Shown: positions 1 through 25,587 of the stretch, piece by piece | Layout: the number at the start of each line of letters is the position of its first letter | Position numbering within the stretch: position 1 is the first letter of the stretch | Assembly (NCBI GenBank): GCA_030594815.1 | Contig: JAUVEN010000020.1 | Span: 1 to 33,630 of the forward strand | From: Gammaproteobacteria bacterium | Lineage (GTDB): Bacteria; Pseudomonadota; Gammaproteobacteria; UBA6429; Thiohalophilaceae | Reading direction: 5' to 3' | Length of the DNA: 33,630 bases | Made by a program: the position numbers and the translations under genes | Notes under the pieces: generated by a model | Database searches by the model: none | The model's input: the letters and a program-made list of their open reading frames with translations, nothing else | Told to the model about the DNA's origin: nothing

Positions 1-1452
1 CGTTTAGGATTGGCTGCCTGGTTACCTATGACAGGTGATGAGGCATACTTTATTGTCTGGGGTAAGAATCTTGATTACGGTTATTATGATCACACGCCTT
101 TTGTTGGTTGGTTGCTGGCGGCATTATTAACCATTTCTGATACTGCATGGTGGCTAAGGCTGCCCTCTGTCTTGTTGCCTATCGTTATATCGTATGGCAT
201 TTATCGAATTTTATTGCCACGTTTGCCTCAATTTGCTGCCTGGAGTGCATTAGCCTATTTAGTTGCTCCGGTTAACTTGATCAATGTACTAATCACCACA
301 GATACTCCTCTAATATTTTTTAGTTTTCTTTCCGCCTGGTTTTTTTATCTTGCTTTATATGTATCTGAGTCTAAGCGTGACTTTCTATTAGCAGGCTTAT
401 TTTTAGGGTTAGCTTTCTTCTCAAAATATTTTGCTGTTTTATTAGGCTTTTCTTTTGGCTTATATATCGTATTGTTCCACAGAGAGAAAAAGAATTTAAT
501 TGGACTAGTTTTTATTTTATTGATGGTCGCACCTTTTGTCGGCCTGAACCTGTTATGGAATTATAACCATTGCTGGAATAATATTTTATTTAATCTTTTT
601 AATCGCACTGCCGGTTCTGATGAACCTTTAATAAGTTTAATGAAATATATGGGTATGCTGATTTACTTGTTCTCACCTGTTTTAATTTATTTTGTTATTA
701 GAAAGACATCAACAATTAAACAGCTTTGGTCTGAGAATGTTGGCCGACTCTATTTATGGCTTGCTTTTTTCCCTTTAGTATTATTTTTACTGTTGCTGCT
801 ACTGTTCCGTAAAGAAGTAGGTTTACACTGGGTATTTAGTTTTTATCCATTTGCATTTATTGCTTTAGCGGGTGTGTTGAGTCTCAAACAATGGCGATGG
901 ACATTCCATTTTATGTGGGTATTTAGTCTTATTCATGTTTTAGCTATAAGTAGCATTTTATTGCTTCCTGTAGAAACGTTTGCAAATAAAAAAGAAGCAG
1001 TAGAGAACTTAATCTTCGGTAAGTATCCAGAAGAAGTTTTAGCAAAACTCAAGCCTTATGAACAAGACTATACCTTCGCAACAATTAGTTATGGCATGTC
1101 TTCCGTTGCATCATATTATTCAAGGAAGCATTTTATAGTCTTTGATAAAGCCTCTTTTCATGCACGTGAAGATGAACGTTTAACCGATTACAAAAAACTG
1201 GATGGAAAGAATATCCTGATATTTAAACGTACCACCTCTAACCTCGATAAATTAAGTAAATATTTTTCAAGTAGCGAACGTAAAAGTTTTAAAGTGAGAG
1301 AGGCAACGTTTGAATTATTAATCGGTAATAACTTTAATTATGATTTGTACCGTGAAGAAGTGTTAAAGCCGATAGATCAGAGTTTTTATTCAATACCAGA
1401 TTGGCTTCCGGTTGGACAATGTGAGTTTAAGAACAAGTATGGGTTTGAATAA
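1..1452 (+). CDS. GT39/ArnT-like membrane glycosyltransferase, 5' end cut by window edge
   Basis: Integral membrane glycosyltransferase of the PMT/ArnT superfamily (GT39, PMT_2). The family transfers a sugar from a polyprenyl-phosphate carrier to an acceptor on the periplasmic side. The frame is open from base 1, and the first in-frame start-like codon (TTG at 10) has no upstream room, so the true start and part of the first membrane helix lie outside the window. The family signature is visible at once: TGDEAYF, then GYYDHTPFVGWL, with the acidic DE pair of the first periplasmic loop. About ten hydrophobic helices follow, then a soluble C-terminal part of about 130 residues. It converges on the lipid-linked pentose operon at 2106-8326, so a polyprenyl-phosphate pentose is a reasonable donor; that link is inference. 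The acceptor (lipid A, pilin or polysaccharide) cannot be read from the sequence. Confidence 0.85.
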   Translation, partial: RLGLAAWLPMTGDEAYFIVWGKNLDYGYYDHTPFVGWLLAALLTISDTAWWLRLPSVLLPIVISYGIYRILLPRLPQFAAWSALAYLVAPVNLINVLITTDTPLIFFSFLSAWFFYLALYVSESKRDFLLAGLFLGLAFFSKYFAVLLGFSFGLYIVLFHREKKNLIGLVFILLMVAPFVGLNLLWNYNHCWNNILFNLFNRTAGSDEPLISLMKYMGMLIYLFSPVLIYFVIRKTSTIKQLWSENVGRLYLWLAFFPLVLFLLLLLLFRKEVGLHWVFSFYPFAFIALAGVLSLKQWRWTFHFMWVFSLIHVLAISSILLLPVETFANKKEAVENLIFGKYPEEVLAKLKPYEQDYTFATISYGMSSVASYYSRKHFIVFDKASFHAREDERLTDYKKLDGKNILIFKRTTSNLDKLSKYFSSSERKSFKVREATFELLIGNNFNYDLYREEVLKPIDQSFYSIPDWLPVGQCEFKNKYGFE

Positions 1453-2105: not shown

Positions 2106-2522
2106 TCAAACCTTTCGAAATGAAAAATATTTATGCCCAAAGTAGCTGCTAAGAACAGGAATACCCAGGCCAATTAAATGGGCAACTTCTTCAGGGTGGA
2201 AAGTGAATGAAATATATGGAAAGAAGTACTCTGCTAAACCTACACTAATTAACCAAACCTGGATCACCGCAAATATATTTACAATTGTAAAATCTCTAAG
2301 CTCATCTTTAAATGGACGCCCACTTTTCTCGAAGACATAATGTTTTGATAATAAAAACGCTGTAATCATGCCCACCAGGTATGCAAATATAATTGCATAT
2401 CGGTAAGAAACTAATTCACTAAAACCAATACGACTGACAAAATTAACCCCGGCAGAAAAGCCTCCGACCATAAGAAATTGGAAAAATTCGCTATGACTGG
2501 ATTTGGAATTGGATTTACTCAT
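2106..2522 (-). CDS. GtrA-family membrane protein
   Basis: A 138-residue protein with the GtrA fold signature: four hydrophobic helices, an early FLMVGGFSAGVNF segment, and a C-terminal aromatic/basic end (FGHKYFSFRKV) typical of the family. GtrA-like proteins are thought to help move polyprenyl-phosphate-linked sugars across the inner membrane; direct proof is limited to a few systems. It is the last gene of the leftward operon. Its ATG overlaps the stop of the preceding FAD oxidoreductase by four bases (ATGA), which implies translational coupling. Placed after enzymes that would make a lipid-linked pentose, it is the natural flippase candidate for this pathway (inference). No terminator is obvious downstream; only a weak six-base-pair hairpin lies near 2075-2095. 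Confidence 0.85.
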   Translation of the reverse strand: MSKSNSKSSHSEFFQFLMVGGFSAGVNFVSRIGFSELVSYRYAIIFAYLVGMITAFLLSKHYVFEKSGRPFKDELRDFTIVNIFAVIQVWLISVGLAEYFFPYISFTFHPEEVAHLIGLGIPVLSSYFGHKYFSFRKV

Positions 2523-3811
2523 AGCGCAGACATTTCTGCCAGTTGTTTACCTAGATGAATACTTTCTGAAATAGAACGGTCTTCCGGATAGTAATAAGAT
2601 GTATCTGCAATGAATAATCCTTCTATTTCTGATCGCATTGGTGGTAGGTGATGTGCAAAATCGGGTTGGCAAATGGGTTGAGCAAAAGCATAACGTGCAA
2701 CATTGATATCAATAAAATCTGAATCAATCAATTCAGGATTAAGTTTGCTTAAATAGGCTTTAGCTTCATCGATAAATTGTTCATCTGTCCATTTAAACTT
2801 ATCTAATGATTGCGGCATGTAATAAGGGACATAAATTATATGCTCAGATAAAGGGCGGAGGTTACTCATTTCGATCACACCTGGTATTTCGAAGTTATCA
2901 TCGCTTATATTTAACCAAAAATTGGGTGTTACTGCTTTTTTAAGTTTAAAAAGTAAACAGACAACACCGATATTCTGAACTTGTTTGTATTGAATTAAAT
3001 GCTCATCAGGTAATTGTGGGATTAATTTTGGCAGATACTGTAAAGGAATAGTACTGATTACCTGATCGTAGTATAATTCTTTATCTTCTACCTTAATGCC
3101 TGTAACTTTATTATTGCTATCACTTATAACTTCACTGACAGGTGTGTTCAGTAATACCTGGCCACCTTTATTTTCAATTTCTTGTTGTAAGCGGTTTAGC
3201 AATGTTTCTGAACCATCTTCTATATATCCTAGAGATTCCTGAAATATACTACGACGAGAGGTACCCATGCGACGAATACGCGCCCAGATCCATGCTGCTG
3301 ACAGGTTGCCGGTATAGTGGTGGAATTTTAGTTTAAAGAGACGTTCCCATAAAATCTTATAGGATTTTTCTCCACCGCCTTTTTTTAACCAGTTAACCGC
3401 ATCAACAGAATCAAGATCTTTCCACTGATCTTTTTTTCGTTTAGATGAAAAAAACATATGTGCGCCATAACGCAATTTTGATATTAAATCGAGATGAGGA
3501 AATTTAAGTAAGGAAAAAGGATCACCCCACTTATGAAGTTGACCGTTATAGTAATAGCCCATTTTAGTATCAACCCAATGCAACTTATCTCGCATATTGA
3601 GTTCATCCATTAAATCGAATAAAGGTTGATCCTGGCCGCAGACAAAATGGTAGTAACGTTCGATGTTCATTCCATTAAAGTCAAAGTGCGCTGACATACC
3701 GCCAATACGATCATCAAATTCATAGATATCAACCTGCTTTCCTTGTTTAGCAAGTTCGTAGGCAGCGGCGAGTCCCATTGGGCCTGCACCGATAATAGCG
3801 ACTTTAGTCAT
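2519..3811 (-). CDS. FAD/NAD(P)-dependent oxidoreductase, amine-oxidase/UDP-Galp-mutase-like
   Basis: A 430-residue flavoprotein. The dinucleotide-binding motif is at the extreme N-terminus (residues 8-13, GAGPMG), followed by the acidic strand end and the RIGGMSAHF loop seen in protoporphyrinogen-oxidase and UDP-galactopyranose-mutase-like enzymes. A second FAD-contact motif appears near the C-terminus (GLFIADTSYYYPEDRS). No membrane helices are evident. The gene sits between the epimerase and gtrA and overlaps gtrA by four bases. Family members in envelope-sugar clusters act on sugar nucleotides or lipid-linked sugars, but substrate and reaction cannot be deduced here. A mutase role is possible in principle, since UDP-galactopyranose mutase shares this fold, but I cannot see its specific active-site residues with confidence. 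Confidence 0.75.
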   Translation of the reverse strand: MTKVAIIGAGPMGLAAAYELAKQGKQVDIYEFDDRIGGMSAHFDFNGMNIERYYHFVCGQDQPLFDLMDELNMRDKLHWVDTKMGYYYNGQLHKWGDPFSLLKFPHLDLISKLRYGAHMFFSSKRKKDQWKDLDSVDAVNWLKKGGGEKSYKILWERLFKLKFHHYTGNLSAAWIWARIRRMGTSRRSIFQESLGYIEDGSETLLNRLQQEIENKGGQVLLNTPVSEVISDSNNKVTGIKVEDKELYYDQVISTIPLQYLPKLIPQLPDEHLIQYKQVQNIGVVCLLFKLKKAVTPNFWLNISDDNFEIPGVIEMSNLRPLSEHIIYVPYYMPQSLDKFKWTDEQFIDEAKAYLSKLNPELIDSDFIDINVARYAFAQPICQPDFAHHLPPMRSEIEGLFIADTSYYYPEDRSISESIHLGKQLAEMSAL

Positions 3812-3820
3812 TTGCTAGTC

Positions 3821-4780
3821 CTAAAAATGTAAAATATATTTACTGTATGTCTCATCAAGGTAGGTTTCTTTTAAGGCAACATCCAGTGGTGTTGATTCAA
3901 CCTCAAATATTTCCCACCAGGGTATCAATTCAAACTCTTCATGAATGATGAGTGCCTTAAGCTGTGAAGTTGTAAATGGAGGATCACGATCAAAAATTGC
4001 ATAAATTTTTAATAAAGTCCAAAAGAACCAGTAGGGGATATGCATGATCCAGGTACTTAAACCTAAAGTGTTCTTGATGGCCTTGATAATATCAACATAA
4101 TCAATTTTCTCACGACCGGTAATATTAAAGACTTCATTGTGTGGCTGCTTAAACATAGCGCTGATAATAATATTACAGAAATCACCAACGTAGAGCGGCT
4201 GGCGCATAAAACGACCGTGTGAAGGAATTGGGAAAACTGGTATTTTTGCCATAAAACGCGATAGCCAGCCTAAGTGTTTTCTGTCGAACCAACCAAACAT
4301 GAGTGTTGGGCGTAAAATACAATGTGCAATGCCGCTGTTAATAACCCGGTTTTCCTGATCTTCTTTTGTTTGCGTATAAAAATCATCGGCTTCTGATTCT
4401 AAAACAGAAGAACTAATATGAACAATATAAGGTACGTTATATTGTTTTGCTGAATGTAGTATTTTTTCAGTTGAAGTCACGTTATTACGAATGAAAGGTT
4501 CAATGGTTAAACCACCGATCTGTGCCTGTAACATGATGATCATATCTGCATCTTGCAGGCTTGATTGCCACTCACCCTCTTCAGCAAGATCAGCTTCAAT
4601 GACTGTGATATCAGGATGAAGATCAGCAAGCATTTTAGTATTGTTTTTATGCTTATCAATCGCCACCAGGTTGGTATAACCGGCCTTCATTAAAAAGACG
4701 ATTAAGTTTTGTCCTACCAGGCCAGCAGCACCCGGGATAACGATTTTGCTATCTTTTGTTATGTTAACAAATGCATTCAT
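3821..4780 (-). CDS. NAD-dependent epimerase/dehydratase (extended SDR)
   Basis: A 319-residue extended short-chain dehydrogenase/reductase. Residues 16-22 (IPGAAGLVG) match the Rossmann glycine motif. SSS near residues 123-125 and YTQTK (YxxxK) supply the catalytic Ser-Tyr-Lys set, with the usual spacing slightly compressed. The C-terminal substrate-binding half contains the VFNITGRE motif common in nucleotide-sugar epimerases. The aromatic-rich stretch near 245-262 may lie at the membrane surface. The start overlaps the end of the upstream SDR gene by four bases and the FAD gene follows nine bases later, so it is a tightly coupled operon member. It may alter the sugar before or after lipid linkage. 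The true substrate is unknown, and the mycobacterial arabinose pathway has no obvious counterpart for it. Confidence 0.75.
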   Translation of the reverse strand: MNAFVNITKDSKIVIPGAAGLVGQNLIVFLMKAGYTNLVAIDKHKNNTKMLADLHPDITVIEADLAEEGEWQSSLQDADMIIMLQAQIGGLTIEPFIRNNVTSTEKILHSAKQYNVPYIVHISSSVLESEADDFYTQTKEDQENRVINSGIAHCILRPTLMFGWFDRKHLGWLSRFMAKIPVFPIPSHGRFMRQPLYVGDFCNIIISAMFKQPHNEVFNITGREKIDYVDIIKAIKNTLGLSTWIMHIPYWFFWTLLKIYAIFDRDPPFTTSQLKALIIHEEFELIPWWEIFEVESTPLDVALKETYLDETYSKYILHF

Positions 4781-5514
4781 AGTGATAGATACTTAAATAT
4801 TTTTTCTGGAATAGATTTAATAATTAGCATGATATAGCGCCAGAAGAAGGGTAGGTAAGCGACCTCGCGTTTTTTCTTAATGGCATTGTAAATGCCTTTA
4901 CTAATAATTTCCGGTGAGACCCATAAGAGACCTTTTTTAAAGTCTTTCGTCATTGGTGTATCAACGAATCCAGGTTTTATGGTTAAGACATGAACTTTTG
5001 ATTTAGATAATCGATTACGCAATCCTTGTAAAAATATCGTTAAGGCACCTTTGGCTGTTCCATAGATATAATTACTCTGACGGCCGCGGTCTCCAGAAGG
5101 CGATGAAATGACAGCAATGGTACCTGAGCCCTGTTGTTCAAATTGATTTGCCAATAGTGTTAAAAGCGAAATAACACTGAGACAATTTATTTGTAATTCT
5201 TTAAGTGTATTTGCATAATTTTTTTCACCATTTTTTTGATCACCTAATGTGCCATAGGCAACAAGAACGGTATCAATGGTTCCCATTGTTTCAGTCACAC
5301 GTTTTATAAGTTCAATATGGTTCTTATCATCGGAGAGATCGAGAGACTCAATATTTACTGATGTTGCACCACGCACTAACATGTCTTGTTTCATACTTGT
5401 CAGTTTGTCTTTATTACGGGCAACTAAAAACAAGTTATGCTCGTCCGCGGCAAAAAGACGCGTTGTATGTTTTGCGATGGTGGACGTTGCACCTAAAATT
5501 AATATGTTTGACAT
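4777..5514 (-). CDS. dprE2: DprE2-like short-chain dehydrogenase (decaprenylphosphoryl-2-keto-ribose reductase homologue)
   Basis: A 245-residue SDR. In mycobacteria DprE2 reduces the 2-keto intermediate made by DprE1, giving decaprenyl-phosphoryl arabinofuranose. Visible features are the N-terminal NAD(P) motif (GATSTIAK), SSPSGDRGRQSN, the catalytic YGTAK (YxxxK), KPGFVDTPMT and a C-terminal WRYIMLIIKSIPEKIFK segment. From memory, the DprE2 of Mycobacterium has closely matching blocks at the same places, including the RYxM...IPxxIF tail that may contact the membrane. Length is close to the family norm. The gene lies directly after the DprE1 homologue, the same pairing as in mycobacteria, and its stop overlaps the next start by four bases. 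Confidence in the SDR call is very high, and in the DprE2-type role fairly high. Confidence 0.82.
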   Translation of the reverse strand: MSNILILGATSTIAKHTTRLFAADEHNLFLVARNKDKLTSMKQDMLVRGATSVNIESLDLSDDKNHIELIKRVTETMGTIDTVLVAYGTLGDQKNGEKNYANTLKELQINCLSVISLLTLLANQFEQQGSGTIAVISSPSGDRGRQSNYIYGTAKGALTIFLQGLRNRLSKSKVHVLTIKPGFVDTPMTKDFKKGLLWVSPEIISKGIYNAIKKKREVAYLPFFWRYIMLIIKSIPEKIFKYLSL

Positions 5515-5542
5515 AATACTATCCTGATTTAATCATTCTGGA

Positions 5543-6868
5543 TTATTTTTTACTCGGCCTTACTCTGCGCTTAAAGTTGGATGAGAAACTTGGATCAATA
5601 AAAGATTCAAACTCTTTCCAATTTGGATAATATTGCGCAAAAGCATCCGGACTCATTCGTGCATCTTTGGCAGGGTAAACTGAGCCATTATATTTTAACG
5701 TGATGGTATCTAACGTGTTTAGTAGATCTAATGTCTTTTGGCCACGGTTTGGAAAATCTAATGCTAAAGTAGTTCCTTTACGCGGAAAAGAAAGTAAACC
5801 CGGTGACTTAATATCGCCAAATTCTTTCAAGACGCTAAGAAAAGAGGCTTGGCCACTATCTGCAATGAGCGCAATCATTTCATTCATTGCTGTTTCACGA
5901 TGTTCTGTTGGAATAAGACATTGGTATTGCATAAAGCCGCGTTTACCATAAAGTCTATTCCAGTGTGCAATAGAATCTAACGGGTAGAAAAACGGATCAA
6001 AATCGACAACTGAAAATTGTTTGATCGGACGTTTAAAATAAAGATGATTAAATGCATTTACCGTATATTTATTTAAAAGGAAACCAGGCGCATCAAAAGG
6101 TACTGAGAGTTTTGATGTTTTAAATTTATGTTTTTTCTTTGACTCGCAATGGTTACCGCGTATAAATAAACCACGACCTAATTCATCACCAGTGGCAAGA
6201 CAATCAATCCAGGCAACGGTATATTCCCAGTCTTTATCTGACTCATCCGATAAACTATAAAATTCTTTTAGATTATTAAAGCGTATGGTTTCCTGTTCGA
6301 TATTGCTACCGGGTATTTTCTTTAAAGAAAATTCTACCCAGTTAATTAAGCCTGTTAGCCCAAGTCCGCCAATAGTGGCATTAAATAACTCACTATTTTC
6401 AGTTGGGCTACAAATTAAACGATCACCATTTGAACGTAATAATTCAAATTTTAGAATGTAACGACCAAATGTTCCGGCTTTGTGATGGTTTTTACCATGC
6501 ACATCATTTGCGATTGCGCCGCCCACACTAACGTATTTTGTTCCTGGTGTTACCGGTAAAAACCAGTTATGCGGGATAATGAGTTGCAGGATATTTTCAA
6601 AAGTTACACCTGCTTCACAGCGCAAGATGCCTTTTTCTTTATCGTATTCTATAAAGTGATCGAGATGCTGAGTATCAAGCAGGATTCCATCTTCATTTAG
6701 ACAGACATCACCGTAGCTGCGACCCTGACCATAAGCGAGAAAGAGTGGAGCATCTGTAGCGCTCTCATTTGTATCAGGGAATGAAAATGAATCAGGATAA
6801 ACATGATAAATATCCTGTTTATCTTTGTCGATTTTTGGGTAACGTCCCCATGATTGATATTGTTTCAT
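5543..6868 (-). CDS. dprE1: DprE1-like FAD-dependent oxidase (polyprenylphosphoryl-ribose 2'-oxidase homologue)
   Basis: A 441-residue flavoprotein of the vanillyl-alcohol-oxidase type. In mycobacteria DprE1 oxidises the 2-hydroxyl of lipid-linked ribose as the first half of its epimerisation to arabinose. Landmarks match DprE1 as I remember it: GQGRSYGD (47-54), PGTKYVSVGGAIANDVHGKNHH (first residues 108-117, FAD motif ending at 129), GGLGLTG (167-173), FFYPLD with AHWNRLYG, and YPAKDAR with the catalytic-type Lys at 401. The covalent benzothiazinone-target Cys of mycobacterial DprE1 is replaced by Ala369 in TLALDFP. No signal peptide or membrane helix is seen. It follows the HAD-UbiA gene by six bases and precedes the DprE2 homologue, so gene order mirrors the biochemical order. 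Confidence 0.88.
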   Translation of the reverse strand: MKQYQSWGRYPKIDKDKQDIYHVYPDSFSFPDTNESATDAPLFLAYGQGRSYGDVCLNEDGILLDTQHLDHFIEYDKEKGILRCEAGVTFENILQLIIPHNWFLPVTPGTKYVSVGGAIANDVHGKNHHKAGTFGRYILKFELLRSNGDRLICSPTENSELFNATIGGLGLTGLINWVEFSLKKIPGSNIEQETIRFNNLKEFYSLSDESDKDWEYTVAWIDCLATGDELGRGLFIRGNHCESKKKHKFKTSKLSVPFDAPGFLLNKYTVNAFNHLYFKRPIKQFSVVDFDPFFYPLDSIAHWNRLYGKRGFMQYQCLIPTEHRETAMNEMIALIADSGQASFLSVLKEFGDIKSPGLLSFPRKGTTLALDFPNRGQKTLDLLNTLDTITLKYNGSVYPAKDARMSPDAFAQYYPNWKEFESFIDPSFSSNFKRRVRPSKK

Positions 6869-6874
6869 TTTAAA

Positions 6875-8326
6875 TTACAACGCTAAATATAAACTGATAG
6901 CAACAAAAAGACTGACGACATAACTACATTTGTCATGTATCGCAAAGAGAACAGGATCTTCATTCATTTGGCCACGAAACGCGAGTAGCCACATGTGACT
7001 AATCCAGTATAGAACAGCCACAGCTACAAACCATAACCAGTTCGGATTATTATATAAGTTGCTGGCTTGTAAATCATGGGTATAAAAAACAAGAACCAGC
7101 ACAGAAATATAACCACTACTAATACCAAATAAACTTACAGCAGGTAAATCATCAACATGATATCCACGTGAGATAGAAGTTGTTTCACCTTGTTGAACCA
7201 GATTTTTTAATTCGGAAAATCTTTTGATTAAAGCCAGTGAGAGAAATATAAACATTGAGAATGCGAGTAACCAATGAGAAAGAGGAACATTAATTGCGAT
7301 AGCGCCAGCAATGATACGAATGGTATATAAACTGGTTAAGGTAATAACATCCAGCAATGCAATTGGTTTTAAGAATAATGAATATGCTGTTGTTAAAACA
7401 AGATAAACAATAAGTACAGAAACAAAATCCGTACTGATTTGACTGGCTAACAAAAATGAAAGAATAACTAGCACAGGAATCATCATTATTGCTGCTTGAA
7501 TTGATAAAATTCCTGCGGCTAGTGGACGATTTCTTTTTGTATGATGTTTTCTATCTGCTTCCAGATCGATGAGATCGTTTATCAGGTAAATTGATGATGC
7601 CGCAAAACCGAATGAGAAAAAGGCCAGTATAATTGCTTCAAAGGCTTCAGTGTTAGACCAGCTATGAGAAAGAATGAGCGCGGTAAAAACCAGTATATTT
7701 TTAACCCACTGGTGAATGCGTAATGCTTTAAATATTACCTTAAATGAAACTTTATGTTCACTCGGTAATATTTCTTCAACCGTCGTTATTTTTTTTGCTT
7801 CATTCACCAGGTTTTCTGAACCATTTACAACAATTGCAGCGGCTGCATGTTGCCAAACTTTTAAATCAATTTTGGCATTACCGGCATAAACGAACCCATT
7901 TTCACCGAATTTATCGACTAATACACTGGCTTTATTCTTCCCGGATAAATTATGTTTTTTATCACTGGCCAGAATTTCATCAAATATATTGAGGTGTGAT
8001 GAAATGGCTTCTGCAATTTTCTTATTCGCTGCGGTAACTAAAACAATGTGTCGATTGTGTAAGCGCTGATGTGTCAGGTATTTTAATAAGTTGGTGTTAA
8101 ACGGTAACGATGCAGGTGACAGTTCAACATGCTCACTGACTTTTTCCTTGAAGCCCGCTTTGCCCAAAAATAACCATAAAGGCAACAAAATAAGCATAAG
8201 TGGATTTTGACTGATCAAACGAAGACACGACTCCCAAAGTGAGTCGGTTTGGATGAGGGTGCCATCAAGATCAACGCACAGAGGTAGCGAAGTGTTAATA
8301 AGTGTTTCGGAATCAGAATTCGTCAT
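6875..8326 (-). CDS. HAD phosphatase-UbiA prenyltransferase fusion, DPPR-synthase-like
   Basis: A 483-residue two-domain protein. Residues 15-185 form a HAD-superfamily domain with motif I DLDGT at 19-23, a VTAANKK motif II region near 97-103 and GNAKID (149-154) as the acidic motif. Residues 195-483 form a multi-helix UbiA prenyltransferase with NDLIDLEAD (250-258) and TKRNRPLAAG (263-272). That second block is very close to the signature of mycobacterial Rv3806c, which adds phosphoribosyl to decaprenyl phosphate. RIHQWVKN (203-210) also fits that group. Inference: the UbiA half makes polyprenyl-phosphoryl-5-phosphoribose and the HAD half removes the 5-phosphate, a step done by a separate enzyme in mycobacteria. 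It is the first gene of the leftward operon. The start ATG follows a 180-base divergent promoter region shared with the Sel1 gene. Confidence 0.87.
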   Translation of the reverse strand: MTNSDSETLINTSLPLCVDLDGTLIQTDSLWESCLRLISQNPLMLILLPLWLFLGKAGFKEKVSEHVELSPASLPFNTNLLKYLTHQRLHNRHIVLVTAANKKIAEAISSHLNIFDEILASDKKHNLSGKNKASVLVDKFGENGFVYAGNAKIDLKVWQHAAAAIVVNGSENLVNEAKKITTVEEILPSEHKVSFKVIFKALRIHQWVKNILVFTALILSHSWSNTEAFEAIILAFFSFGFAASSIYLINDLIDLEADRKHHTKRNRPLAAGILSIQAAIMMIPVLVILSFLLASQISTDFVSVLIVYLVLTTAYSLFLKPIALLDVITLTSLYTIRIIAGAIAINVPLSHWLLAFSMFIFLSLALIKRFSELKNLVQQGETTSISRGYHVDDLPAVSLFGISSGYISVLVLVFYTHDLQASNLYNNPNWLWFVAVAVLYWISHMWLLAFRGQMNEDPVLFAIHDKCSYVVSLFVAISLYLAL

Positions 8327-16781: not shown

Positions 16782-16857
16782 TAATTTTTGTATGGGGCAT
16801 ATTATGTAACATGTTATATCTTTATTTAAAAAACACCATGATCAAGGAGTGATCAAT

Positions 16858-17697
16858 ATGCGTCATTACTACCTCATTATTTTTCTTTTATTTATGCCGT
16901 TTTTGGCTATTGCTTCTGAACAAACTCCGCCTGCTTTGTTACTAGCTAAAGTGTATAAGCAAAATAACCAACTTGCTGAATATTGGGTTAGTGAAAAGCT
17001 CGATGGTGTTAGAGCATATTGGAATGGCAATGAATTTATTTCACGCCAAGGCCATATCATTCACACACCTAAATGGTTTATCAAAAATTTACCTACTATA
17101 AAATTAGATGGAGAGTTATGGTTGGGCAGGACTCGCTTTGATGAGCTTTCAGGAAGAGTGAGAAAAAAAGTCTATGTCGATAGTGATTGGCTGGATATTA
17201 AATATATGATTTTTGATTTACCCGATAGCAATGAAATATTTACCCAACGTTTAAAACAACTTGAAAAAATAATTTACAACATTAATGAAAAACATATTCG
17301 GTTAATTAAACAATCTAAAGTTTCATCGCATAATGCTTTGATGAAAAAATTAGATAAGTTAGTCGTGTTGGGTGCAGAAGGATTAATGCTACATCGAGGT
17401 TCATCTTTTTATAAAAGTGGCAGACATGATGATTTGTTAAAATTAAAACGTTATTTCGATGCAGAAGCGATTGTTATTAAACATATAGAAGGTAAAGGAA
17501 AATTTAAAGGCATGTTGGGTTCAATGTTAGTCGAAACTAAGGGCAAAATACGTTTTAAAATTGGATCTGGTTTCTCGCTAAAAGAAAGGAAAAAACCTCC
17601 AGAAATTGGTGCGGAAATAACCTATAAATATTTTGGTTTAACAAGCAAAGGTACGCCCAGATTTGCCAGCTATTTACGAGTACGAAAGAAACACTAG
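16858..17697 (+). CDS. ligE: Exported minimal ATP-dependent DNA ligase (Lig E type)
   Basis: A 279-residue ligase with a signal peptide (residues 1-20, ending AIAS), which places it in the periplasm. ATG at 16858 is chosen because AAGGAG lies at 16844-16849; a GTG nine bases earlier would overlap that site. The nucleotidyltransferase motif I is KLDG with Lys47 as the AMP-accepting residue. DGELW (84-88) is motif III, EGLMLH motif IV and LLKLKRYFDAEAIVI motif V. A compact OB-fold domain ends the protein. The Lig E group occurs in naturally competent and biofilm-forming gammaproteobacteria and Neisseria and is thought to act on extracellular or incoming DNA. The gene is single and converges on the carbonic anhydrase gene with one base between their stop codons. 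Confidence 0.93.
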   Translation: MRHYYLIIFLLFMPFLAIASEQTPPALLLAKVYKQNNQLAEYWVSEKLDGVRAYWNGNEFISRQGHIIHTPKWFIKNLPTIKLDGELWLGRTRFDELSGRVRKKVYVDSDWLDIKYMIFDLPDSNEIFTQRLKQLEKIIYNINEKHIRLIKQSKVSSHNALMKKLDKLVVLGAEGLMLHRGSSFYKSGRHDDLLKLKRYFDAEAIVIKHIEGKGKFKGMLGSMLVETKGKIRFKIGSGFSLKERKKPPEIGAEITYKYFGLTSKGTPRFASYLRVRKKH

Positions 17698-18852: not shown

Positions 18853-21108
18853 TTAAGCCGTTAATGACATAAATAACTTCGGCAACTGTTCTGGCAACTT
18901 TTCAATGTTATCAATAACGGTATAACCATTTTTACCAAAGATATCGGCAATGTATTCATCGGCCTTTTTATCAAGACTAATACAATGAGTGTAAATACCT
19001 TTAGCAGATAATTCATCAACCGCTTTATGCGTGTCATTGATTAACAGTTTGTCATCACTGACATCAATATCAGCCGGTTCACCATCGGTTAAGATCAACA
19101 GTAATTTCTTATCGGCTTGTTGCCCTTCTAAATAATGCGAAGCATGTCGAACCGCTGCGCCCATACGTGTTGAGTAACCGGGTTCTATTGCTGCAAGTCT
19201 TGACTTTACAGTGTCATCCCAATGTTCAGTAAACCCTTTTATGTGATGGTAACGAACATTGTGGCGAGTATCTGAATGGAAACCGGCTATAGCGAACTTA
19301 TCACCAAGCTGTTCAATCGACCAGCCCAATAAGGTGGTGGCTTCACGGCTGAGTTCAAGAATGCTTTGTGTGCTACCTTCAGGTACTTCATTTAATGAAG
19401 CGGATAAATCCATTAATAATAAAACAGCAAAATCACGGCCATCATGTTTATGGCTCATATTAATGCGTGGGTCAGGTTGCGCACCACTTTTAAAGTCAAT
19501 GATTGAACGTATTGCAACATCTAAGTCTAACTCGCTACCTTCTTCCTGGTAACGAATACGAACATAATTTTGTGGCTTTAATAAATCTAATAAGCGTTTT
19601 AAATAATTCGCTAAAGCAGAATGCTTTTCTAATATTTTATCAATATCAGAAGCATTACCTGGCTGATGCAGTGATTCATACAGCGTGACCCAATCAGGTT
19701 TATAACTGTTGGTATTGTAGTCCCACTCGTGATAATGACGCGGCGGCAATCCATCGGGTTCAACCGTTTCTAAATTTTGCGGTTCACTGGTGTCATCTTC
19801 CGCTTCATCATTTTCTTCAATAAAGAGCCACATGTGACGATTATCATCGCGGTAATCGATTTCAGTATTTTCAAAACGAATCTTTGGTAGTTGATCAGTT
19901 TGTAGGCGAGTTTTAGTGGTAAAGGAAATCGCGAGCAGTAACATTTCTTTACTGTTTGATTCTGCGTTGTCCTTTAAAGCATTATGAAATTTTTCGACAA
20001 ATTCAAGAATCACGGGGTTTTTATAACCATGATTTTCATCAAGAATGGCGCGCGACAACATAGCTAAGCGATGACGAACGCAAGACTCGTTTTCATTGTC
20101 GCAGCTACCTTCAACAGGAATTGGGTGCAGAGCAAGAAAATATTTTCTTAGTCCTGGGTAGTCTCTAAGGATTAAGGCTTCAATGCGCGAGTCTTCAAAC
20201 AACTCAACGGCAATACGTTGAAACGGTGATAAGTTATCTGCAATTTGCCTTGTGGTCCAACGCTTGTGGCCAGCCATATGTGCAAGAACAACACGATAAC
20301 GATCAATTCCTGAAATGCCATCTTTATCATCAAACACATCGGGGACTCGCATGCCTAAACTGTCATAGTAAGGTTGCGGTTTGCGCATCTCATCAAAACC
20401 TAATGAATAAGGCACAAGATATTCTTCTGCTTGCCACATGCTACGCATGTACATATCTAGCGAACGTTCATTATCCATATACAATGTGCCGTGACGTTCA
20501 CGTTGTAACATTGCTTTAGAATCTGCAGATTGTAGAGTGAAAAAATCACGTTGACGTTCAGGATGGTTGTTGTAGTTACGTGCACCGTATTCCATCCAGT
20601 TTTTTAAGCCTTCAAGTGAAAGTTGGCTAAGCAGGTAAGGAATTTGTTGCAGTAAATCAGGCAAACCCGGACTAGCGAATGTCGTATGGTGACCATGAAT
20701 CGAACCCGTAGTGGCATGCATCATTTCAAAAATAATTTCGATGAAGTGCTTCATTTGCTCTTTGGTGCCTAAGCGACGAGCGGCTTCAGGTAAGCAATGC
20801 ATAAACGGCGGGATAGAATTACCATTGGGTGTACGTGACATATCCCAAACGGCTTGTGAAACCATACTCAGCATTTCTTCGCCTAAGTCGTGGGCGATGT
20901 TAGGCATTTCTTCAAGATAAACCAGGACAGGTTCAAAGCCACGACCGATCATGCAAACCATGGAGGCGCCTTTTAAGTAATCTTCAACACCATCATTACT
21001 TAAGTTACGCATTACATCTTTCATGTAGTCGTCAAAGCAATCTTCAATTTGCTCGAAACTACATTTTAGTTTTTTGCGATATTCTGGAAATTCAGTTTCT
21101 GTTGTCAT
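18853..21108 (-). CDS. cbbO: CbbO, von Willebrand A-domain subunit of the RuBisCO activase
   Basis: A 751-residue protein. CbbO is the adaptor that joins RuBisCO to the CbbQ ATPase ring so that tight-binding sugar phosphates are removed from inhibited active sites. The long helical N-terminal region (about 1-420) includes HMAGHKRWTTRQIADN. An acidic linker (about 430-455) precedes the C-terminal VWA domain (about 555-750). Its metal-ion site is intact, with DLSAS at 567-571, Thr647 in GYSTRMG and Asp675 in LTDGEP. Length is normal for CbbO. It is separated from cbbQ by about 150 bases holding a long imperfect inverted repeat, and is followed closely by the 149-residue gene. Confidence 0.95.
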   Translation of the reverse strand: MTTETEFPEYRKKLKCSFEQIEDCFDDYMKDVMRNLSNDGVEDYLKGASMVCMIGRGFEPVLVYLEEMPNIAHDLGEEMLSMVSQAVWDMSRTPNGNSIPPFMHCLPEAARRLGTKEQMKHFIEIIFEMMHATTGSIHGHHTTFASPGLPDLLQQIPYLLSQLSLEGLKNWMEYGARNYNNHPERQRDFFTLQSADSKAMLQRERHGTLYMDNERSLDMYMRSMWQAEEYLVPYSLGFDEMRKPQPYYDSLGMRVPDVFDDKDGISGIDRYRVVLAHMAGHKRWTTRQIADNLSPFQRIAVELFEDSRIEALILRDYPGLRKYFLALHPIPVEGSCDNENESCVRHRLAMLSRAILDENHGYKNPVILEFVEKFHNALKDNAESNSKEMLLLAISFTTKTRLQTDQLPKIRFENTEIDYRDDNRHMWLFIEENDEAEDDTSEPQNLETVEPDGLPPRHYHEWDYNTNSYKPDWVTLYESLHQPGNASDIDKILEKHSALANYLKRLLDLLKPQNYVRIRYQEEGSELDLDVAIRSIIDFKSGAQPDPRINMSHKHDGRDFAVLLLMDLSASLNEVPEGSTQSILELSREATTLLGWSIEQLGDKFAIAGFHSDTRHNVRYHHIKGFTEHWDDTVKSRLAAIEPGYSTRMGAAVRHASHYLEGQQADKKLLLILTDGEPADIDVSDDKLLINDTHKAVDELSAKGIYTHCISLDKKADEYIADIFGKNGYTVIDNIEKLPEQLPKLFMSLTA

Positions 21109-21118
21109 GTTTATTTTT

Positions 21119-21249
21119 CACCACGAAGGGCACGAAGGACACTAAGAAAAGAAAAATATGATTATTTATAAAGAAATAAATCTTTATTTAAAAATATTTA
21201 AGAGTTGAACAAATATTTAACTCTTTGTGTTCTTCGTGTCCTTGGTGGC
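21119..21249. repeat. Inverted-repeat element between cbbQ and cbbO
   Basis: The left arm (21119-21150) carries CACGAAGGGCACGAAGGACAC, 21 bases long when counted with its first base; its 20-base core is ACGAAGGGCACGAAGGACAC. The right arm (21221-21248, CTTTGTGTTCTTCGTGTCC and GGTGG) is its imperfect inverted copy. The roughly 70 bases between are very AT-rich. This CACGAAGG/CCTTCGTG pattern recurs between genes in many proteobacteria. In the transcript it would fold into a long hairpin between the two activase genes. Confidence 0.65.
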
Positions 21250-21260
21250 TCAATATATTT

Positions 21261-22070
21261 TTAACCAAAAATACTATCAATAGAATGAATTAAAGTATCG
21301 CGAATGTCTTTGTCATCAGTAATTGGAGTGACGAGTGCCATACGGCAAGCAGATTTCGCTTCGATACCATTATTCATTAAGGTCGCTGCGTAAACTAACA
21401 AACGAGTAGAGATACCTTCATCAAGGCCATGGCCTTTTAGGTTACGTGCAGTGTGTGCAATTTTTACTAACTTCGCTGCAATGGCTTCATCAACTCCGGC
21501 TTCTTTAACAACGATTGCTGTTTCAACTTTTGAATCGGGGTAATCAAAATCTAAACCAGAGAAACGTTGTTTAGTTGATTGTTTAAGATCTTTCATCATG
21601 CTTTGATAACCAGGGTTATAAGAAATAACTAACTGGAAGTCCGGGTGAGCATTAATAAGCTCACCTTTTTTATCAAGCGGTAACTGACGACGATGATCAG
21701 TAAGAGGGTGAATAACAACAGTCGTATCCTGACGTGCTTCAACAATTTCATCTAAGTAACAAATTGCGCCAATACGTGCAGCCGTTGTTAACGGGCCATC
21801 TAACCAACGTGTGCCGTTAGCATCAAGTAAGTAACGACCAACTAAATCAGACGCTGTCATATCTTCATTACAAGCAACTGTAATTAATGGTTTGCCTAAT
21901 TTATAAGCCATGTGTTCAATAAAACGAGACTTACCACAACCGGTCGGACCTTTTACGATAACAGGCATACGGGCAGCATAAGCGGCTTCATATAATGCAA
22001 CTTCATCACCCATTGCTTCGTAATAAGGTTCTTCAGTAATTTTGTATTGTTCGATATCAATATCGCTCAT
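21261..22070 (-). CDS. cbbQ: CbbQ, MoxR-family AAA+ ATPase of the RuBisCO activase
   Basis: A 269-residue AAA+ ATPase, the hexameric motor that works with CbbO to reactivate RuBisCO. Walker A is GPTGCGKS at 41-48 and Walker B ends in Asp106-Glu107 (CYLDE). Sensor-type residues follow in VISYNPGYQ, and the family C-terminal domain occupies about 190-269. Length and motifs fit CbbQ better than other MoxR proteins because of the cbbM/cbbO context. Upstream lies a 257-base gap that contains the terminator of the DUF3365 gene, so cbbQ probably has its own promoter at about 22080-22250 rather than depending only on read-through from cbbM. Confidence 0.95.
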   Translation of the reverse strand: MSDIDIEQYKITEEPYYEAMGDEVALYEAAYAARMPVIVKGPTGCGKSRFIEHMAYKLGKPLITVACNEDMTASDLVGRYLLDANGTRWLDGPLTTAARIGAICYLDEIVEARQDTTVVIHPLTDHRRQLPLDKKGELINAHPDFQLVISYNPGYQSMMKDLKQSTKQRFSGLDFDYPDSKVETAIVVKEAGVDEAIAAKLVKIAHTARNLKGHGLDEGISTRLLVYAATLMNNGIEAKSACRMALVTPITDDKDIRDTLIHSIDSIFG

Positions 22071-22253
22071 GATGTATTCCTATACTTGTAGCAGTCTCAA
22101 TCTATTACGGCGGGTTTTGTACCAGGCCGCAAAACGTCCGAGTATTATACAGAGTCTTTTATATAAGTTAATTCAATGTTTCTTGTGCTATGGATAAGTT
22201 ATTGCTTATGCTTGGTTAGATTGGATTGTTACTAAGACGGGGTTTAAAACAAA

Positions 22254-22288
22254 AAAATCCGCTATCAATCGGGTTGATAGCGGATTTT
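22254..22288 (-). terminator. Bidirectional intrinsic terminator after the DUF3365 gene
   Basis: Twelve perfect pairs, 22257-22268 (ATCCGCTATCAA) with 22274-22285, loop TCGGG. A-run on the left and TTT on the right, so the minus-strand RNA ends in U's. It separates the haem-protein gene from cbbQ. Confidence 0.9.
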
Positions 22289-22327
22289 ATTGGATATTCG
22301 CTCTGTAGAGCCCTTTTTAGTACTTAC

Positions 22328-22915
22328 TCAAAGTTCTTTCTTAAGACTAAATGCCCCACGAATATCTCCCGCTTTATAGCCTCGCGCCTTATCCTCAGGA
22401 TAGAGTTTACTGAGTTGATTTTCGATTCCAGCTTTAACCTTGCCACCATGACACATGAGGCAGGGCTTTTGAGCCGTAGGGATTGCTTTCATCATACGGA
22501 AGTACTGTTTACCATCTTCCATAACGATCTCTTTGTAGGCCATGGTTTTTACCTTTTCACCGGCAGCTTTACGCTGCTCAAACTTCATCAGTACGCTTTT
22601 TTCCCATGCATCGGGTGCATTACTTGGGTTACGCAATTTGAGACTGGTTCGGCCCAGCTCTACACCGTGTTTTTTAGAGAGATCAGCGGCAACAGTAGGC
22701 GCAATTTCGTTGCAGACAGTAATTGTTTTGACGGGGCCACCGCTTTTCATGCTTTTCTTAACGTGGCCAACCAGTGTTTTGCCAAACTCCATGAAGATTT
22801 TTTTACCTTCAACGGCCAGGGCTTTTTGTTCATCTGCTGACACCTGACGGGGTGCATCTGTAGTACATGCGATAGGTAGTGTTAGGACTATTGCGGCGAA
22901 AATCACTTTTTTCAT
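22328..22915 (-). CDS. DUF3365 (Tll0287-like) single-haem c-type protein
   Basis: A 195-residue exported protein. The N-terminal leader (MKKVIFAAIVLTLPIAC) ends in a Cys that could be lipidated, although Pro at the -3 position is not a standard lipobox. The body matches DUF3365: VCNEIAPTVAADLSKKHG and RTSLKLRNPSNAPDAWE, then the haem-attachment motif CLMCHG near residues 152-157 and a final DIRGAFSLKKEL. Relatives include the cyanobacterial Tll0287 and sensory domains, and redox sensing has been proposed. It lies between cbbM and cbbQ on the same strand but has hairpin terminators on both sides, so it may be a separate transcript. Its link to CO2 fixation is by position only. Confidence 0.85.
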   Translation of the reverse strand: MKKVIFAAIVLTLPIACTTDAPRQVSADEQKALAVEGKKIFMEFGKTLVGHVKKSMKSGGPVKTITVCNEIAPTVAADLSKKHGVELGRTSLKLRNPSNAPDAWEKSVLMKFEQRKAAGEKVKTMAYKEIVMEDGKQYFRMMKAIPTAQKPCLMCHGGKVKAGIENQLSKLYPEDKARGYKAGDIRGAFSLKKEL

Positions 22916-23082
22916 ACTGATAACCTCTGATTTGGATAACTATTGTTGAGCTGGTTTAAACATTTGATCCCTTTAATATACCCTTATTGCTTATAAGGTA
23001 AAGAGGCATTTGTAAAAATACTACAGCTTCCCACCATTCCGATTGAAAGTGGGCTGTAAAAGAAAAAACAGGCAAAAAAAAC

Positions 23083-23108
23083 CCCCACCAAATGGCGAGG
23101 GTTTTTTC
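23083..23108 (-). terminator. Terminator after cbbM
   Basis: An imperfect stem formed by AAAAAACCCCCACC and GGCGAGGGTTTTTT around a short loop, with one or two mismatches. Poly-A on the left gives a U-run in the leftward RNA. It lies 17-42 bases past the cbbM stop. Confidence 0.75.
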
Positions 23109-23124
23109 AGACTAAAACGTTCGC

Positions 23125-24507
23125 TTACTTGTGAACGCCTAGCTTGTCTCTCCAACCTGGGAAGATTGAATCAGCATCACCAGGGAATGACTCGAATGCA
23201 CGAGCAAATTCATTATGATCTTTAGCGAATTCGATTGGGTCAGCGCCTTCTTTCCAACATTCAAATGCTTGACGTAAAGACTTCGCACCTGCTGCAGGAG
23301 AATCGATGTGACCGTAAGAACCACCACCAGAAGTGTTGATTACGTTGCCGTGACCTAAGTTTTCGAAGAAACCAGGTAAACGTAACGCGTTCATGCCACC
23401 AGAGATGATTGGCGTAGTTGGCTTCATGCCATGCCATTCTTGATGGTAAACAGGACCATCTGCGCTATCACGTTCGATCATGTATGCGATGTTTCTATCG
23501 TCCTTACCACCTTCCATTTTGCCGTAGCCCATAGTGCCCACGTGGATACCAGAAGCACCCATAAGACGAGAAAGCTTAGCAAGAACAAATGCAGTGTAAC
23601 CACGTACAGATGAAGGTGAAGTAATCGCGCCGTGACCAGCACGATGATAATGTAAGTATTGTGAAGAATAGTTACGACGTGCAGTTGTAACCATACCTGG
23701 ACCACCAACATAACCATCAACCAGGAAAGCAACTGCATGAGCATTTTCAGCAAAAGTTTCTAAGATGTAGTCAGCACGAGCACACATTTCGTGGTGATCG
23801 TCAGCTGTGATGTTTGCAGAGAAGATTTTAGCTTCGCCAGTTTCGTCTTGTGCACGTTTCATTGCGTCAGCAACTAAAGGAATAACCTTTTTCATTGGGC
23901 AGAAAACCTGGTTGCCTTGAGGCTCATCATTTTTGATGAAATCGCCACCTAACCAGAACTGGTATGCAGCTTCAGCGAAAGGCTCTGGACGTAAACCTAA
24001 TTTAGGCTTGATGATAGTACCTGCGATGTAACCACCGTCTTCACGTGGACGACCTAAGATGCTCCACATATCAGTGATATCTACTGAAGGACCATCGAAA
24101 GATTGAAGCATTTTCTTAGGAACATAGAAATCGATCATTTGTGCACATTGCACATCACCCATGCCCTGGTTGTTACCAATAGCAAGAGTAAGGAAAGATA
24201 CAACCATTGAACGGCCGTCAATTACGTTACGGTCAAATAAATCGTTAGGGTATGCAAGTTTCATGATGCCTTTAGCTTCATCAATCTCGTAAACCATACA
24301 ATCTAAGTTTTTCGTGAAGTCATCTGTAGTTGAAACTTCAACGTTAGTACCAGTAGATGATTCTGCTGCGAAATGAGCTGCAGTTTCTAAATAACCACCA
24401 AAGCCAGGCATTGGTGTCATAGTGTAAGCCACTAACATGTGACCGCCGTCGGCTATAAGTGTTGCTTCATCCAGACTTAAGTCTGCATACCGTGCTGATT
24501 GATCCAT
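23125..24507 (-). CDS. cbbM: Form II RuBisCO large subunit
   Basis: A 460-residue form II ribulose-1,5-bisphosphate carboxylase/oxygenase, the CO2-fixing enzyme of the Calvin cycle. Active-site residues are all in place: Lys167 in [10 protein letters not shown], the carbamylated Lys192 with Asp194 and Glu195 (FIKNDEPQ), His288-Arg289 (HYHRAGHG) and the loop-6 Lys330 (GYGKMEG). The [10 protein letters not shown] and [10 protein letters not shown] phosphate-binding blocks are also present. The size is normal, and form II needs no small subunit; none is encoded nearby. A GAGGAA precedes the ATG. It is divergent from cbbR across 174 bases, followed by a terminator, the DUF3365 gene and cbbQO. The absence of carboxysome genes fits use at raised CO2 or low oxygen. 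Confidence 0.98.
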
Positions 24508-24681
24508 TATAGATTTCCTCGTTTATAAAAATTCGTTTTAACTTTCACCCAAATTAATATGGGCTAAGCTTCAAGTTTCGGCTGGATATTAAGTGCTCCT
24601 GCCAGAAAGTTTTGCGACTATACGCAGGATCATTCATAATTGATACTCAATATTTTTGATGATTATGATAAGCAAAACCTT
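24508..24681. promoter_or_regulatory. Divergent cbbM/cbbR control region with candidate CbbR sites
   Basis: LysR regulators of cbb genes bind TNA-N7/8-TNA. Two such sites are seen: TAA-TATGGGC-TAA at 24555-24567 and TAA-TTGATAC-TCA at 24637-24649. The latter overlaps a small palindrome ATTGA-TAC-TCAAT (24639-24651). The sites bracket a stretch that should hold the cbbM promoter. The AT-rich background makes chance matches likely, so the exact sites are tentative although the region's role is well supported by gene arrangement. Confidence 0.45.
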
Positions 24682-25587
24682 ATGAATATAACCTTTCGCC
24701 AGCTAGAAGTATTTGAAGTGGTCGCGCGTCTTTTGAGCTACACCAAGGCATCCAAAGAGCTCCACCTCAGTCAACCCGCAGTTTCTATGCAAATCAAGCA
24801 GTTAGAGGAGAATACGGGGCTTCCATTGTTTGAACAAGTCGGTCGAAAAACCTATTTAACCGAGGCTGGTAGGGAGATGTACCACTATTGCAAGACAATT
24901 GCGCAGCAGCTGGAAGAGGCGGGTGAGGTACTGGAACAGTTAAAAGGACTCAAATCTGGTCGTTTAGAGATTACCGTAGCCACTACCGCCAATGCCTTTG
25001 CAACACGCATGTTATCCATGTTCAACAAGCGGTATGAAGGCTCAACCGTGAGTCTTGATGTAACCAATAGGGAGCGCTTACTTCGCCAGTTAGCTGATAA
25101 TGAAAAGGATATCGCTATCATGGGGCGACCACCCGAAGATGCCGATCTGGTGACAGAACCTTTTGCTGATAATCCGCTAGTGGTGGTGGCTGCACCCGAT
25201 CATCCGTTAGTGGATGAGCAGCCTATACCTTTACATATGTTGCAGGATCAAACATTCGTGGTACGGGAAAAGGGCTCAGGTACACGAACCGCGATGCAAC
25301 GTTTTTTTGAAGAGCATAATTTGAGTATTACCTCGAGCATGGAAATGAATGAAAACGAAGCCATTAAACAGGCCGTGCAAGCCGGTATGGGGCTGGGTAT
25401 TGTTTCAATTCATACCATTGAACTTGAGTTAGAAACTAACCGGTTGGTTATTCTGGATGTCGAGGATTTCCCGATCATGCGGCACTGGTATTTAGTGCAT
25501 CGTAAAGAAAAACGGTTGTCGCCAATTACCCAGGCTTTTAAGGATTTTGTATTGAGTGAGGGACGGAATTTAATATCTCACATGTAA
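24682..25587 (+). CDS. cbbR: CbbR, LysR-type regulator of CO2 fixation
   Basis: A 301-residue LysR-type transcription factor. ATG at 24682 is chosen because the protein then begins MNITFRQLEVFEVVARL, the usual start of this group; a TTG at 24640 would add 14 residues and run through a likely operator. The helix-turn-helix covers residues 1-65 (SQPAVSMQIKQLEENTGLPLFEQ). The inducer-binding domain follows at about 90-295, with GSGTRTAMQRFFEEH and QAVQAGMGLGIVS. It is divergent from cbbM, the classical CbbR position, and should activate cbbM in response to a metabolite such as RuBP or NADPH (known for the family, not shown here). Short hairpins follow its stop. Confidence 0.93.
   Translation: MNITFRQLEVFEVVARLLSYTKASKELHLSQPAVSMQIKQLEENTGLPLFEQVGRKTYLTEAGREMYHYCKTIAQQLEEAGEVLEQLKGLKSGRLEITVATTANAFATRMLSMFNKRYEGSTVSLDVTNRERLLRQLADNEKDIAIMGRPPEDADLVTEPFADNPLVVVAAPDHPLVDEQPIPLHMLQDQTFVVREKGSGTRTAMQRFFEEHNLSITSSMEMNENEAIKQAVQAGMGLGIVSIHTIELELETNRLVILDVEDFPIMRHWYLVHRKEKRLSPITQAFKDFVLSEGRNLISHM

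Follow-up and report, generated by a model that had tools for sequence, protein, structure and literature searches.

A conserved six-gene proteobacterial cassette joins a predicted DprE1/DprE2-type pentofuranose-donor pathway to a further SDR and a PRK07233 flavoprotein

Gram-negative bacteria have a widespread pentofuranose-donor system, and DprE1/E2 homologues are found in its candidate Araf systems and predicted for Araf (Kelly et al. 2024, PMC11127046). In Citrobacter, a HAD-UbiA fusion has been proved to make farnesyl-P-ribose, and an SDR replaces Ribf with Xylf in the side chain (PMC11127046). The mycobacterial decaprenyl-P-arabinose pathway, which serves the cell wall, comprises Rv3806c, Rv3807c, DprE1, DprE2, and Rv3789, and its phosphatase is a separate protein. 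A PPPRS orthologue and a lipid-linked Araf donor have also been proposed for the arabinosylation of pilin in the Pseudomonas aeruginosa group and, with noeCHOP, of Nod factor in Azorhizobium.

The locus analyzed here contains a six-gene operon. The window (the whole stretch of 33,630 nucleotides that was analyzed) carries these genes on the minus strand from 8326 to 2106, with gaps of 6, 28, -4, 9, and -4 nt. Gene 1 (6875..8326) encodes a 483-aa fusion of a HAD phosphatase (PF12710) and a UbiA-fold polyprenyl-phosphate phosphoribosyltransferase (PF01040). It is followed by genes for a DprE1-type FAD oxidase (5543..6868, 441 aa), a DprE2-type short-chain reductase (4777..5514, 245 aa), and an extended, epimerase-like SDR (3821..4780, PF01370) whose gene overlaps that of DprE2 by 4 nt. 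The last two genes, which also overlap by 4 nt, encode a PRK07233 flavoprotein of the amine-oxidase/CrtI/PPO superfamily (2519..3811; NCBIfam PRK07233, 528 bits, cut-off 252) and a GtrA family protein (2106..2522; PF04138, 54 bits), the proposed flippase for a lipid-linked pentose. The initial annotation described three adjacent UbiA, DprE1-like, and DprE2-like genes at 4777-8326, and we confirmed these, all on the minus strand and with similarity far above chance. It overlooked the HAD domain fused to UbiA and the three further operon genes (SDR, flavoprotein, and GtrA) that extend to 2106.

A candidate transferase gene lies next to the operon. A gene for a GT-C (PMT_2) glycosyltransferase (1..1452, plus strand; PF13231, 73 bits, and a weak PF04602 match) is convergent with the operon, and its 5' end is open, cut by the contig start; a homologue from the same genus has 529 aa. 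We consider this gene the best transferase candidate because related GT-C genes adjoin the DprE1-DprE2-HAD-UbiA genes in four other families (L057, L073, L075, and L077). At the level of genes, the locus thus has the three-component pentofuranose set of HAD-UbiA (PPPRS plus phosphatase), GtrA, and PMT_2 GT-C.

The locus shares parts with each of the known systems and appears to differ from all of them in its additional enzymes. Citrobacter youngae O1/O2, like the window, has a HAD-UbiA fusion for polyprenyl-P-ribose, a flippase, and a GT-C transferase, and its epimerization takes place at the lipid level, as in the pathway proposed below (PMC11127046). It has one GalE-like SDR, for Xylf, and a MATE-type transporter, whereas the window has DprE1/DprE2, a second SDR, the PRK07233 flavoprotein, and GtrA. 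The mycobacterial pathway has the phosphoribosyltransferase and DprE1/DprE2 families in common with the window, and each has a small proposed flippase; however, the mycobacterial phosphatase is unrelated to the HAD domain that is fused to UbiA here, and the literature consulted on that pathway describes no extra SDR/flavoprotein pair. The literature on the P. aeruginosa and Azorhizobium systems likewise mentions no extra SDR or flavoprotein, and the P. aeruginosa PPPRS is without a PRP domain (PMC11127046).

The fusion protein has the characteristics of a polyprenyl-phosphate phosphoribosyltransferase. Its HAD domain (residues 19-130) has the motif DLDGT, its UbiA domain is C-terminal, and the whole protein matched NCBIfam PRK08238 with 610 bits. 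Against the NCBIfam decaprenyl-phosphate phosphoribosyltransferase models it scored 145-161 bits, compared with 57 for the next UbiA family and 29 for ubiA_proteo, and we dropped an ordinary UbiA prenyltransferase as a candidate on these scores. The only PDB relatives were entries for the M. tuberculosis DPPR synthase Rv3806c (8j8j, E 1.5e-32). The motifs noted initially, NDLIDLEADR and TKRNRPLAAG, are present as written. We then looked at twelve positions of Rv3806c for which binding of PRPP, Mg, or lipid phosphate has been reported (PMC10994848); the window protein has eleven of these residues. The exception, Gln135, is Thr there and in most relatives. Ten positions (R22, K28, Y70, N73, D77, K87, R90, Y138, K143, and K191) are invariant across 51 homologues, in which the Y157 position is Tyr or Phe. 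The other UbiA protein of the same genome is without K28, Y70, K87, Y157, and K191. Based on scores and residues, the assignment as an enzyme predicted to make polyprenyl-P-ribose from PRPP is well supported. A UbiA stretch 34% identical to the window protein is also present in an unannotated phage record (MT837543.1, 5210-5743; from human faeces), and Kelly et al. mention a phage-encoded system too (PMC11127046).

The next two proteins appear to be divergent orthologues of DprE1 and DprE2. Among solved structures, the FAD protein matched DprE1 at an E-value of about 1e-66 (next family, 9e-9), and the reductase matched DprE2 (21gq_C) at 2.6e-31 (next SDR, 4e-11). Both fell below the NCBIfam cut-offs for these names (350 of 500 bits for DprE1 and 176 of 250 bits for DprE2), and we therefore call them divergent orthologues (DprE1-type and DprE2-type); the reductase reached the cut-off of PRK07102 (315 of 267 bits). 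Aligned to DprE2, it keeps the S-Y-K catalytic residues, and its gene is beside that of DprE1. Taken together, HMM scores and solved relatives favor the proposed correspondence of the three core proteins to Rv3806c, Rv3790, and Rv3791, that is, DPPR synthase, DprE1, and DprE2.

Phylogeny placed the FAD protein with DprE1. In a tree with very long outgroup branches, the window protein, 54 relatives, and M. smegmatis DprE1 formed one group (100/100) that excluded four FAD paralogues from the window's own genome; a position firmly outside DprE1, which would have spoken against the initial annotation, was not seen. The equivalents of the catalytic Lys418, Tyr60, and the active-site His are retained. 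Where mycobacterial DprE1 has Cys387, the residue attacked by covalent benzothiazinones, all 55 sequences (the window protein and 54 homologues) have Ala, so that covalent inhibition by these compounds is not expected in them.

The core genes are widely distributed. In an even sample of 275 genomes from the class Gammaproteobacteria, 54 carried DprE1, and HAD-UbiA homologues were present in 34 of 58 relatives, in agreement with Kelly et al. (2024, PMC11127046). The route is thus not restricted to mycobacteria, P. aeruginosa pilin, and Azorhizobium, and the earlier view of it as a feature of special cases is outdated.

The complete six-gene arrangement is conserved across three proteobacterial classes. 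Another 32 loci in alpha-, beta-, and gammaproteobacteria have all six genes collinear and in the same orientation. They include loci in genomes of the same family, in other gammaproteobacteria, and on plasmids of Burkholderia stagnalis, Agrobacterium salinitolerans, Rhizobium, and a rhodobacterium. Two of these loci (L089 and L103) are about 13 kb apart in one genome, G688, and in each copy DprE2 and the SDR are separated by a different large gene. Several loci (e.g., L029, L084-L090, and L103) have a longer span or a large gene at this position. The inserted genes that we examined encode many hydrophobic segments and matched no Pfam family, so that we can only guess at a role as a transferase. 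In a Pelagibacteraceae genome, the gene order is also kept, apart from an insertion, and GtrA is more divergent. The set persists where the order is rearranged (G022 and G098) and where the genes are at separate loci (G020 and G068). In L037 (G025, 4283-5571) a frameshift or a sequencing error divides the flavoprotein gene into two neighboring frames, the cassette being otherwise complete. Polysaccharide genes are often near the cassette, and these neighbors differ between loci.

The SDR and the flavoprotein tend to occur together and with the core. Both orthologues are retained in G068, although unlinked, and both are absent from eight core-only genomes. In two genomes that are 82-84% complete (G031 and G035) the SDR was present and the flavoprotein was not found. 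With a threshold of 50% identity or more, flavoprotein orthologues were present in 7 of the 275 class genomes, all seven of which have DprE1 (hypergeometric P about 4e-5 without the window's own genome). The DprE1 tree, in which a few of the rows labeled as six-gene came from split or contig-cut loci, did not show one common origin for the six-gene form; about 10 changes of the label are required, five or more of them forced by starred branches. The extra genes were therefore gained or lost repeatedly. No earlier description of the six-gene form was found in the main texts of the literature searched. As far as these show, the cassette appears undescribed, and the core pathway itself is already known as widespread. 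The DprE1/DprE2 route in Gram-negatives has at least two forms, the core and the six-gene cassette, and the latter is also plasmid-borne in Rhizobium, Agrobacterium, and Burkholderia.

The gene neighborhoods of distant flavoprotein relatives point to polyprenyl-phosphate-linked sugars. The extended SDR, with its motifs G-x-AGLVG and S...YTxxK, is conserved in 40 relatives, and the flavoprotein is also conserved in relatives. The nearest solved relatives of the SDR are general extended SDRs, none of them close, and those of the flavoprotein are weak and general (CrtI/PPO/MAO flavoproteins). AlphaFold models made with three-sequence alignments had a mean pLDDT of 56 for the flavoprotein and 54 for the SDR. 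We dropped UDP-galactopyranose mutase as a candidate for the flavoprotein, the match being weak and in one distant homologue. Four distant PRK07233 relatives (28-30% identity) are located away from DprE1. In L064 and L102 the adjacent GT2 had its highest scores with PgfS and the ArnC-type undecaprenyl-phosphate transferase; in L066 a GT2 of a less clear kind and an extended SDR are nearby; and in L064, L065, and L102 there is an LPG_synthase_TM protein nearby. A polyprenyl-phosphate-linked sugar appears to be the common denominator of these neighborhoods, and PRK07233 proteins may more generally assist polyprenyl-phosphate-sugar pathways. Our analysis thereby proposes a testable role for a flavoprotein family that NCBI still names hypothetical.

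We propose that the operon makes and further converts a lipid-linked pentofuranose. The UbiA domain would use PRPP to add phosphoribose to polyprenyl phosphate, presumably of the undecaprenyl type, and the HAD domain fused to it would take off the 5-phosphate, supplying the dephosphorylation step. DprE1 and DprE2 would then invert C2 to give polyprenyl-P-beta-D-arabinofuranose. We infer these first four reactions from homology, and very probably the operon does carry out the core reactions up to polyprenyl-P-Araf. In the later steps, the PRK07233 flavoprotein and the extended SDR would act as a second oxidation/reduction pair that alters the lipid-linked pentose, GtrA would flip the product, and a GT-C enzyme, probably that of the convergent gene at 1-1452, would transfer the sugar onto an envelope glycan or glycoprotein; these steps are suggested by gene context only. 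What the sequences themselves show is to which families the proteins belong, that catalytic and substrate residues are conserved, how the operon is built, and which genes co-occur. For the reading as a whole, in which the cassette makes polyprenyl-P-Araf, the flavoprotein and SDR convert it further, GtrA flips it, and the GT-C transfers it, we lean slightly in favor.

The initial annotation can be kept in part. Its route from PRPP through polyprenyl-P-ribose to polyprenyl-P-arabinose is well supported by sequence, substrate residues, and the DprE1 tree, but because two further conserved enzymes follow the three core genes, the final sugar may not be arabinofuranose, which would then be an intermediate. 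A decorated envelope molecule, as had been suggested, is reasonable to expect; that the decoration is arabinose is less certain for the same reason, and no acceptor can be named. We think it decidedly unlikely that the cassette yields a lipid-linked pentofuranose other than arabinose through a second flavoprotein/SDR step after DprE1/DprE2. Inversion of C3 in this step would lead to polyprenyl-P-D-lyxofuranose. According to Kelly et al. (2024, PMC11127046), no solved carbohydrate structure contains Lyxf, and its formation would require both C2 and C3 to be inverted. If the extra pair does alter the pentose, the cassette would extend bacterial glycan chemistry by a sugar and would offer glycoengineering a set of enzymes.

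Other explanations of the locus differ in how much of this pathway they retain. That there is no phosphoribose pathway, and that an ordinary UbiA prenyltransferase lies beside unrelated FAD and SDR enzymes, seems extremely improbable: the UbiA, FAD-binding, and SDR families are broad and the DprE1 and DprE2 scores are below the NCBIfam cut-offs, but the score gaps to other families, the PRPP-site residues, the HAD fusion, the conserved triad, and the DprE1 tree all argue against it. A somewhat unlikely but more serious alternative is that polyprenyl-P-Araf is the final donor and that the SDR and flavoprotein act elsewhere, e.g., on the acceptor glycan or a precursor. It is consistent with the DprE-only operons that have a related GT-C gene (L057, L073, L075, and L077), with the frequency of polysaccharide genes near the cassette, and with the finding by Kelly et al. 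(2024, PMC11127046) that DprE1/E2 homologues accompany Araf. Yet the SDR and flavoprotein hold a close order with the core across the three classes, despite the differing polysaccharide neighbors.

The flavoprotein, with or without the SDR, might instead modify the polyprenyl chain, e.g., by saturation, and so set apart a carrier pool for the pathway. Its nearest relatives include isoprenoid enzymes (HpnE and CrtI-type desaturases), and its distant homologues adjoin different polyprenyl-P-sugar synthases. However, the superfamily is broad and amine oxidases score alike, saturation of the chain needs no paired SDR, and the core does without the flavoprotein in many genomes; we judge this explanation very unlikely. 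The gene context of the pair is also compatible with a role at the lipid chain or at the acceptor. The most economical reading has the pair performing a second redox step on the lipid-linked pentose, because of the polyprenyl-P-sugar contexts and because the pairing of flavoprotein and SDR mirrors that of DprE1 and DprE2.

Elsewhere in the window, the region 18853-25587 contains genes for a form II RuBisCO (PRK13475, 881 bits) and a divergent CbbR-like LysR regulator. A MoxR-like ATPase (21261-22070) and a large protein (18853-21108) in this region look like CbbQ and CbbO, an impression from the sequence and not a family match. A small DNA ligase is encoded at 16849-17697 (NCBIfam PRK09125, 368 bits), and its first residues resemble a signal peptide.
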